A model generated the notes under the pieces. That model had not been told where the DNA came from. It was given only the letters and a program-made list of their open reading frames with translations, and ran no database searches. From positions 93,792-157,791 of the forward strand of contig JAFDWK010000010.1 of assembly GCA_018268515.1 (NCBI GenBank): 64,000 nucleotides of DNA. The letters are read 5' to 3'. Both the position numbers and the translations under genes were made by a program. This DNA is from Actinomycetota bacterium. Lineage in GTDB: Bacteria; Actinomycetota; Actinomycetes; Actinomycetales; Microbacteriaceae. This document shows positions 56,326 to 58,818 of this stretch, in pieces. Every line of letters starts with the position of its first letter. The stretch's first letter is position 1.

Positions 56326-58481
56326 TTCAGGCCTCGTTTCGGCATGCGGTCTCGGGGGCCGGGGCGCTGCATCCCGGCTCGGCGCTCGGCGCGGTTGGCG
56401 AACTCCGATGCCTGCTCGCGCTCGGCCCGGGCGGCCGTGCGCTGCTCGTCGTACTCCGTGTACGCGTCCACGATGCGCCCGACCAGCGAGTGACGCACGA
56501 CGTCGTCGCTGGTGAGCCGGGAGAAGTGGATGTCGTCGATGTCCTTCAGCACCCGGGTCACGACGCGCAGCCCGGAAGCGCCCTGCGGCAGGTCGATCTG
56601 GGTGATGTCGCCCGTGACCACCATGCGCGTGCCGAACCCGAGCCGGGTGAGGAACATCTTCATCTGCTCCGGCGTGGTGTTCTGCGCCTCGTCGAGCACG
56701 ACGAAAGAGTCGTTCAGCGTGTTGTGGGTGACGAGGAAGTCATCCGTGACGTACAGCGAATCCTCCGCGGCGACCTGGATGCAGACCGTCTCCGCCTCGC
56801 ACTCGGGTGTGATGTCGTGGACATAGCGTTGCGGACGCCCTGTCTTGGTGGCCTGATAGATGACGCGCTTGCGAGTCAGCCGGAACGGCACGATCCCCTC
56901 TGGAAGACGAATGTCCATGACGAACGCGTCGTGCTGGTGTCCCACCGGACGCCCGTTCGCATATCCGGGAGCACGCCCCTCGGCGACTCGCGTCCGAACG
57001 TACGCGACTCCACCGAGGGAGCGAACGAGCTGCGTGACATCGTCACGCAACCGCGGCGAGATCGTCGTGTACTGGACCCGACACGTACGTCCGCGCTGCA
57101 TCACGGGGCCGCCATCCGTGTCGAGCAGCCCTTGCAGCACCGCGAGCCTGACATCGACAGAGTTGCGGAGATACTGCTGCGGGATGAACTTCGTCGATGA
57201 AGTAGTGCCGTCCAGCTCCAGTTCCCTGATGGCGACCGTCACGGGGTTGGTGACAATGACTCCGCCGCGCCCTCCTCCGGCACGCCGGAGCACATAGTCA
57301 TACCCGTCCTTATGCGTCACTTCCACACTGGGGAGGCTCTGCTGGAGGCGTTCGACAAGCTCAACGTCGGCCGTGGAGAAGCTCGGGGTGGTCTTGCAGG
57401 TGATGGATCCATCCCCCAGCAGAAGTCCGAGAGCATACGGATCCATGGGCACAGGTTGTTCGATCATCTGGACCGGCCGCGCCACGGGCAGCTCGAACCG
57501 ATGGAAGTGATTCTGCCAAAGCCGACCGATCATGTCGCTGGTCTGCAGCACACGAGACTTCCCGCGGCGCTTGTCATCGCGGGTCGTCACCGTCCACAGA
57601 TGCTCTCCGCAGCACAGCGTGGATGCCCCGTCCTGAGAGGTGACGCGATAGACAGGTTTGCGCCCCTGCGGAAAGACGCCGAGGACCGGCGTGGGCTCAC
57701 CATTCGATCCGATCACGAGGTCGCCGACCTCGAGGGAGCCGATCGTCACGAACCCAGACGGCGTCAGCACCTGCGCATCAAGCGGTTGGGCTCGGCCGCG
57801 CATGTACGCCAGGGGGGCGACCTCGATCGTGCCGCTCGCCATCAGGCGGGGCACGATCTCCGGATCCATCATCTCGTTCAGGGCGTCGTAGAGCGGGCGC
57901 AGGTACGGATCGATCTTGTCGGTGAGGGTGCCGGGGAGGAACCCGAGCCGCTCCCCCGCCTCGACGGCCGGACGGGTCAGGATGATCCGCTCGACCTCCT
58001 TGCGCTGCAGCGCCTGCACGGCCTTCGCCATCGCGAGATAGGTCTTGCCCGTGCCGGCGGGGCCGATCCCGAACACGATGGTGTTCTCATCGATCGCGTC
58101 GACGTACTCCTTCTGGCCGAGCGTCTTCGGCCGGATCACCCGTCCGCGCGTGGACAGGATCGCCTCGCCGAGCACCTCGCTCGGGCGCACGCCCTCCCGC
58201 TCCAGCATGCGTGCAGACTGGGCGACGTCGCTGGGCGCGAGCGCATGCCCCGAACGGGTCAGCTCGATCAGCTCGTCGACGAGCTTCCGCGCCGCACGCA
58301 CCGCGGCGGGCTCGCCGGTGAGGGTCACCTCGTTGCCGCGCACCAGCACGTCGACGGCCGGATGCTCCTTCTCGAGCATGCGCAGCAGACGATCCTGGGG
58401 GCCGAGCAGCTGCACCATCGCGACCCCGTCCACTTCGATGCGGGCCGAGGTCGTGGATTCGGCCGTGTCGTCAGAAGCCAA
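56322..58481 (-). CDS. phoH: PhoH-family ATPase containing an intein
   Basis: PhoH-like proteins are cytoplasmic P-loop ATPases linked to YbeY and RNA metabolism. The 719-residue precursor has an N-terminal KH-like segment (LLGPQDRLLRMLEKEHPAVD), Walker A FGIGPAGTGKTYLAMAKAVQ at about 137, and Walker B VVLDEAQNTTPEQMKMFLTR after the intein. Residues 231-587 are an intein inserted between APLAYMRGR and TLNDSF. Removing it leaves a 362-residue PhoH of normal length. Start: TTG 58481, chosen for its GAGGAG ribosome-binding site; an ATG at 58514 would overlap the HIT gene and has none. Confidence 0.93.
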   Translation of the reverse strand: MASDDTAESTTSARIEVDGVAMVQLLGPQDRLLRMLEKEHPAVDVLVRGNEVTLTGEPAAVRAARKLVDELIELTRSGHALAPSDVAQSARMLEREGVRPSEVLGEAILSTRGRVIRPKTLGQKEYVDAIDENTIVFGIGPAGTGKTYLAMAKAVQALQRKEVERIILTRPAVEAGERLGFLPGTLTDKIDPYLRPLYDALNEMMDPEIVPRLMASGTIEVAPLAYMRGRAQPLDAQVLTPSGFVTIGSLEVGDLVIGSNGEPTPVLGVFPQGRKPVYRVTSQDGASTLCCGEHLWTVTTRDDKRRGKSRVLQTSDMIGRLWQNHFHRFELPVARPVQMIEQPVPMDPYALGLLLGDGSITCKTTPSFSTADVELVERLQQSLPSVEVTHKDGYDYVLRRAGGGRGGVIVTNPVTVAIRELELDGTTSSTKFIPQQYLRNSVDVRLAVLQGLLDTDGGPVMQRGRTCRVQYTTISPRLRDDVTQLVRSLGGVAYVRTRVAEGRAPGYANGRPVGHQHDAFVMDIRLPEGIVPFRLTRKRVIYQATKTGRPQRYVHDITPECEAETVCIQVAAEDSLYVTDDFLVTHNTLNDSFVVLDEAQNTTPEQMKMFLTRLGFGTRMVVTGDITQIDLPQGASGLRVVTRVLKDIDDIHFSRLTSDDVVRHSLVGRIVDAYTEYDEQRTAARAEREQASEFANRAERRAGMQRPGPRDRMPKRGLK
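56721..57791 (-). mobile_element. PhoH intein, class 3, with LAGLIDADG homing endonuclease
   Basis: The 357-residue in-frame element begins Ala-Gln-Pro (block A: AQPLDAQVLTPSGFVTIGSL) and ends DFLVTHN before Thr+1. The usual first Cys/Ser is replaced by Ala. Instead it has the class 3 triplet: Trp 66 in block B (CGEHLWTV), Cys 337 in block F (AETVCIQVAAEDSLYVTDDF), and Thr as the first C-extein residue. The endonuclease domain (about 118-260) has both motifs with acidic residues: YALGLLLGDGSI and LQGLLDTDGG. His 356-Asn 357 completes the C-terminal splice site. All needed residues are present, so splicing and homing activity are plausible. Confidence 0.93.
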
Positions 58482-58818
58482 CGAGCTTGTTCTCCTCGAG
58501 ATTGCCGAGCACATGGGCGTGCACGTGGAACACGGACTGCGCGACGCTCGCGCCGTTGTTGAAGATGAGACGGTATTCGCCGTTCGCGTGCTCGTCGGCG
58601 ATCTCCTTGGCCGCGGCGACCATCTTCGCCATGAGCCCGGGGTCCCCGGCCGCGAGCTCGGTGACGTCGCGGAACCGCTCGGACTTGGGGATCACGAGCA
58701 CGTGCAGGGGCGCCTGCGGGTTGATGTCCCGGATCGCGAAGACGTCATCGGTCTCCAGCAGGATCTCGCCGGGGATCTCCCCGTTCAGGATGCGCGTGAA
58801 GATCGAGGGTTCGCTCAT
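58471..58818 (-). CDS. HIT-family protein (HinT-like)
   Basis: The 115-residue histidine-triad nucleotide-binding hydrolase carries the HxHxHxx motif as VFHVHAHVLG at about 96-105, preceded by FRDVTELAAGDPGLMAKMVA. The start MSEPSIFTRILNGEIPGEIL with the C-terminal Gly-Phe is typical of HinT, which removes AMP from phosphoramidates. It lies between rsmE and phoH, overlapping the phoH start by about 11 bases. Confidence 0.92.
   Translation of the reverse strand: MSEPSIFTRILNGEIPGEILLETDDVFAIRDINPQAPLHVLVIPKSERFRDVTELAAGDPGLMAKMVAAAKEIADEHANGEYRLIFNNGASVAQSVFHVHAHVLGNLEENKLVGF

Follow-up and report, generated by a model that had tools for sequence, protein, structure and literature searches.

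Organization of the interrupted phoH gene

The window is the whole 64,000-nucleotide stretch of DNA that was analyzed, and its minus strand carries a phoH gene interrupted by an intein (Table 1). Pfam places phoH upstream of ybeY, a CorC/CNNM-like gene, and a gene for a GTPase with a KH domain, which we take to be Era-like, and downstream of genes for a HIT protein, an RNA methyltransferase domain protein, and DnaJ. The start of the phoH ORF was set at the first ATG listed, and the true start is uncertain. The insert (56721–57791) is 1071 bases, or 357 codons, in frame. It occupies ORF residues 242–598, is flanked by ...EVAPLAYMRGR and TLNDSFVVLDEAQN..., and interrupts PhoH precisely at the MRGR/TLNDSF junction, a point that lies between Walker A and Walker B. 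The sequence-only reading had given these coordinates and the flanks APLAYMRGR and TLNDSF, and both are exact. It had also expected a PhoH of normal length after intein removal, and this was confirmed. PhoH minus the insert is 373 residues counted from the listed ATG and 362 residues counted from the position that matches the TTG start listed for the intein-free relative L061, whose PhoH is also 362 residues.

Table 1. Features of the interrupted phoH gene in the window.
Feature	Positions	Strand	Evidence or remark
phoH ORF with intein, 730 aa	56322..58514	-	PF02562 (PhoH), 6.1e-89, in two stretches
N-extein: PhoH N-terminal part, Walker A (GPAGTGKT), ending ...APLAYMRGR	57792..58514	-	Intein-free relative aligns to PDB 3b85_A
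C-extein: TLNDSF..., Walker B region VVLDEAQN, through stop codon	56322..56720	-	
Class 3 intein (very probable assignment), 357 aa	56721..57791	-	Flanks, Pfam, PDB sequences, empty sites, alignment, model
Hint N-terminal part, residues 1–75, blocks A and B	57567..57791	-	phmmer match to gp41-1 intein residues 3–72
Block B His64	57600..57602	-	50/50 aligned inteins
Block B Trp66, W of WCT	57594..57596	-	50/50 aligned inteins
LAGLIDADG motif 1, PYALGLLLGDGSIT, Asp127	57399..57440	-	Asp127 in 29/30 PhoH-site inteins
LAGLIDADG motif 2, RLAVLQGLLDTDGGP, Asp226	57105..57149	-	Asp226 in 29/30 PhoH-site inteins
Block F Cys337, C of WCT, proposed first nucleophile	56781..56783	-	50/50 aligned inteins
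Block G Thr355, T of WCT (G:5 in the available text of PMC5050341)	56727..56729	-	50/50 aligned inteins
Penultimate His356 and terminal Asn357	56721..56726	-	50/50 aligned inteins
Thr+1 in C-extein, predicted second nucleophile	56718..56720	-	T in 29/30, S in 1/30 PhoH-site inteins

An N-extein DNA probe matched 364 of the 366 genomes of the window's genus, and the 29 intein-free loci closest to it by identity (L061–L089; 84–93%) were read. RGR↓TLN (arrow, insertion point) is uninterrupted in all 29. L061 PhoH also aligns to the solved PhoH structure 3b85 with no gap at the insertion site, and relatives of the insert occur in other hosts, such as DnaB and a DEAD-box helicase. A reading of the insert as an ordinary additional domain of PhoH is vanishingly improbable and is refuted by the empty sites.

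Anatomy and class assignment

The intein is a Hint splicing domain that encloses a two-motif LAGLIDADG endonuclease. Searches of PDB sequences matched gp41-1 (3.6e-13), PI-SceI (1.3e-9), and the M. smegmatis DnaB intein 6bs8 (8.3e-7). The profile search suggested from the sequence alone was borne out in part: LAGLIDADG_3 (PF14528) covers intein residues 213–277 at 8.1e-11, whereas the Pfam Hint-type models match weakly, under their cut-offs. A PF14890 (Intein_splicing) search of the window's own genome did not report the phoH locus. The structure was modeled with AlphaFold2 from an alignment of 49 sequences (mean pLDDT 93.8, pTM 0.91), and this model was used in place of a single-sequence prediction with a pLDDT of 30.9. 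The Hint N-terminal part has a pLDDT of 93–98 by ten-residue block. Foldseek comparison to the PDB ranked PI-SceI chains at the top (E 9.9e-20) and the class 3 structures 6bs8, 6riy, and 6rix at 17–25 (E ~1e-6). The model and its matches to solved inteins identify the Hint fold. PI-SceI, the yeast VMA intein, has the same two-domain architecture and is 16–18% identical to the window intein; it is a eukaryotic class 1 intein with Cys1.

The intein was aligned with relatives that are 34–75% identical to it. The 50 rows consist of 30 PhoH-site inteins and 20 inteins at other sites, and the latter include 17 of 25 non-PhoH loci; the 8 loci left out have the same His-Leu-Trp, Cys, and Thr-His-Asn (28/28 loci). 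Judged from the sequences, the matches and the alignment are not chance. The signature residues are invariant in the 50 rows and Ala1 is present in 48, with Ser1 in 2 of the 30 PhoH-site inteins. These two, L091 and L104, begin with Ser rather than Ala, and L104 also has Ser+1. Ser1 is said to be kept in some class 3 inteins, as Tori and Perler reportedly noted in 2011.

The available text of PMC5050341 places the Trp-Cys-Thr triplet at B:12, F:4, and G:5, and that of PMC6195587 gives Trp67, Cys118, and Thr137 followed by His138 and Asn139. The window intein lacks Cys or Ser at position 1 and has Trp in block B, Cys at F:4, and Thr at G:5. The M. chimaera DnaB1 intein has a Cys124-His65-Thr143 triad with Trp67 (PMC7664689, in excerpt), and Cys337-His64-Thr355 with Trp66 is, as aligned, the same arrangement. 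Full-length similarity extends to DnaB, helicase, and phage relatives with the same triplet. We conclude that the element, which is full-length, belongs with little room for doubt to the actinobacterial PhoH (RGR↓T) family of class 3 inteins. The sequence-only reading of a class 3 intein in PhoH without an N-terminal Cys or Ser was therefore borne out, with Ala1, Trp66, and Cys337 where it placed them. It was wrong in counting Thr+1 as the signature threonine, because the literature puts that residue at G:5, which is Thr355 inside the intein. Thr+1 is the predicted second nucleophile, so the T+1 mutant in the proposed splicing test would probe a later step and not the class signature.

A class 1 or class 2 splicing route is extremely improbable. 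Class 1 requires Cys or Ser at position 1, where the window intein has Ala. Class 2 inteins likewise begin with Ala, but the available text of PMC4031507 describes them as attacking through Cys+1 and carrying Asp at F:4 together with Ser at G:6. The window intein instead has Thr+1, Cys337 at F:4, and His356 at G:6, and Trp66 and Thr355 are also present.

The two LAGLIDADG motifs carry the acidic residues Asp127 and Asp226. Pairwise dN/dS in the endonuclease part is 0.12–0.24 against six relatives, with dS near saturation. Among related loci, L120, L116, L027, and L031 have decayed or shortened endonuclease parts with splicing residues intact; both Asp127 and Asp226 are lost in L120, and L116 is shortened. 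The M. smegmatis DnaBi1 and M. chimaera DnaB1 inteins (6bs8, 6rix, 6riy) share the Hint fold, the His-Trp spacing, Cys at F:4, and the Thr-His-Asn end with the window intein, and they differ in their DnaB site (the P-loop for DnaBi1) and Ser+1. DnaBi1 no longer contains an endonuclease, and its B:7 residue is Asp (PMC6195587, in excerpt), whereas the window intein has Cys61 at this position, three residues before the catalytic His. Position B:7 is Cys in 19, Ser in 10, and Thr in 1 of the 30 PhoH-site inteins.

Distribution and probable horizontal gain

Thirty inteins were found at the PhoH RGR↓T site, the window's and those of 29 other loci, 25 of which come from 11 actinobacterial families. 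A class-wide search with a cut-off of 1e-40 gave matches in 29 of 394 genomes, and 25 of them, counting the window's, are at this site. Three of the other class matches (L117–L119) have a helicase flank of the type found in L012, and L093 has an intein at GAGK↓T in a large protein with no Pfam name. A contig search returned 28 relatives, three of them at the same PhoH site (Ornithinimicrobium sp. F0845, a Quadrisphaera MAG, and a Nocardioides MAG). The flank of the other 25 ends in GK, followed by Thr+1 in 24 and Ser+1 in one. Pfam identifies the host as DnaB in L009 and as a DEAD-box helicase in L012, which is presumably RecG from its flank. Related class 3 inteins interrupt helicase genes of Streptomyces and relatives at GSGK↓T (L012–L014, L117–L119). 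The PhoH-site set of 30 also takes in the genus genome G183 and Nonomuraea gerenzanensis.

Class 3 inteins in PhoH had been seen before. The available text of PMC6195587 shows those of M. fortuitum and M. xenopi in a 2018 figure, and that of PMC7360933 mentions an intein in M. smegmatis PhoH. These mycobacterial PhoH inteins (PMC6195587, in excerpt) share host protein and class with the window's and come from different species. The identical RGR↓T site is seen in four genomes of family f11, with 59–63% intein identity. The f11 genomes are likely mycobacterial: the four tested all match the PE family PF00934 (106, 2, 3, and 6 matches) and three other genomes have none, in a test in which the E. 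coli control also gave a match. Their inteins fit the published mycobacterial PhoH inteins. The combination of class 3 intein and PhoH is thus not new, as the sequence-only reading had thought it might be, given the mycobacterial reports (PMC6195587, in excerpt) and the 29 further loci. The phrase 'phoh intein' was not found in the open-licence literature searched.

Phage ATPase and helicase class 3 inteins are of similar length to the window intein and 31–43% identical in the 80 viral loci kept of 579, among the matches listed. A crude motif test found Trp-Cys-Thr in 77 of the 80, and 73 of the 80 lie at GK↓T/S, again among the matches listed, whereas the window intein lies at RGR↓T. Scoring followed a simple rule tolerant of misplaced starts, under which 55 of the 73 are exact and 18 fall within 12 residues, and many, not all, of these viral GK↓T/S sites are recognizable Walker A motifs. 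With 73 of the 80 listed viral loci at GK↓T/S, RGR↓T is an off-P-loop site. Off-P-loop class 3 sites are known in TerL1-c, -d, and -e (PMC5050341, in excerpt), so RGR↓T is not a new kind of site. The RGR↓T and GK↓T/S sites are, in sequence, similar in minimal context: a Gly, a basic residue, and then Thr+1. In the PhoH of a viral contig (L191, IMGVR_UViG_3300005253_001115), a class 3 intein interrupts Walker A (GTGK↓TYLAM), the MRGRT site is uninterrupted, and PF02562 matches the C-part at 5.9e-56. Derivation of the RGR↓T site from an L191-like Walker A site by retargeting is speculation. The gene annotated as PhoH in phage GX15bay (H10; MK557849; L090 1029–3851), which lies between terminase and portal genes, was considered as a candidate phage PhoH bearing such an intein and was rejected. 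Pfam finds intein parts and no PhoH, the PHROGs matches fall on the intein region, and the annotation is unsupported.

A DNA search for an intein donor in phages gave no match. The best phage protein match among the matches listed is 42.8%, with one record in the 60–80% identity band of the phage protein search, and the last 37 intein residues gave only short matches to phage among the matches listed (10 of 82). The sole record above 60% in one search is the 11.85-Mb replicon of Nonomuraea gerenzanensis, a plasmid according to PLSDB.

Within the genus the distribution is sporadic. The full-length intein is present in 2 of 366 genomes, the window's and G183, and the two inteins are 75% identical. 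Twenty other genus genomes have matches at 30–38% only, mostly to residues 3–133. The copy of this kind that was read lies in the window's own genome, which has a second class 3-like intein at the P-loop of a DnaB (DnaB_C by Pfam; contig C39, L003 826–3432) with the junctions AMGK↓ALALD...PTHN↓S and HQW and RCVQV blocks; similar matches occur in 20 other genus genomes and G183. The window's own genome also has a short class 1-type intein with a Cys start, an ISHN end, and Cys+1 (contig C13, L001 685–2763, minus strand), which interrupts an apparent CxxxCxxC cluster in a protein presumed to be a radical SAM enzyme.

The host PhoH protein is 98% identical to that of an intein-free relative, whereas the nearest intein is 75% identical. 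The intein has a G+C content of 63.6% against 69.0 and 68.4% for the exteins and a GC3 of 0.77 against 0.91 and 0.93. Of 1259 overlapping stretches of 1071 bases in the window, only 5 have as little G+C. An extein tree that included 10 of the 29 intein-free loci grouped the window with five intein-free relatives (96/98 support) and placed G183 outside this clade, and the intein tree paired the window with G183 (100/99). The exteins have 9 changes private to the window relative to 12 close relatives over 930 bases. Two of these, at −1 and +14, are next to the insertion point; they are suggestive of a co-conversion tract and too few to claim one. Taken together, the trees, the 98% extein identity, the low G+C, and the −1 and +14 changes favor horizontal gain, and the element is probably a sporadic mobile element acquired in this way. 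Two gains within the genus are the simplest form of horizontal gain and are favored. A single ancient gain with many later losses is a possible alternative, because the two genus carriers have sister inteins. The grouping of the f11, f26, and four of the five f24 inteins in the intein tree matches that in the extein tree, so residence over long periods occurs as well.

Proposed splicing and homing, and a possible switch

Splicing chemistry, splicing activity, and endonuclease activity are predicted here by analogy with known class 3 inteins. The Hint domain would fold after translation. Cys337 (F:4), in the Cys337-His64-Thr355 triad and packed against Trp66, would attack the Arg(−1)-Ala1 bond and take the N-extein, which would then be transferred to Thr+1. 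Asn357 would cyclize with the help of His356 to free the intein, and the ester would shift to a peptide bond to give continuous PhoH. At the DNA level, the central LAGLIDADG endonuclease would carry the element, by homing, into phoH alleles that lack it.

Poor or absent splicing would make the main phoH a natural near-null allele covered by a second PhoH-domain protein. The same genome does have a second PhoH-like stretch (contig C79, 36% identity, in a 469-residue frame), which is consistent with such cover. We consider a near-null phoH very doubtful against intact catalytic positions, a frame that is open throughout, exteins conserved at 98% to an intein-free relative, and an intein under purifying selection (dN/dS 0.165 with G183). 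Conditional splicing as a PhoH switch, for example through oxidation of active-site cysteines, is unlikely, and several observations bear on it. The gene adjoins ybeY, the CorC-like gene, and the presumed Era-like gene, and Cys337 would be the obligatory nucleophile, with Cys61 at B:7 a cysteine shared by 19 of the 30 PhoH-site inteins. In the class 3 intein of M. smegmatis DnaB, splicing has been shown to depend on oxidation of active-site cysteines (PMC6195587, in excerpt). The position of DnaB Cys48, counted back from the block B Trp, is Val47 in the window intein, so that disulfide is not conserved. Two other cysteines, Cys60 and Cys331, occur in 10 and 1 of the 30 PhoH-site inteins, respectively, which speaks against a switch. 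The specific proposal that the intein is kept as a switch, in which oxidation of or metal binding by Cys337 and Cys61 pauses PhoH under stress while the endonuclease keeps mobility, is quite unlikely. If it were true, a phoH-ybeY-era type gene cluster would be tied to redox state.

No known mechanism is altered by the class 3 PhoH intein of the window. It adds a clean, full-length, endonuclease-bearing example to a group whose members have been reported without detailed study in the accessible portions of the literature. With 2 carriers among 366 genomes and close empty alleles, homing, gain, and loss are directly testable in one genus.
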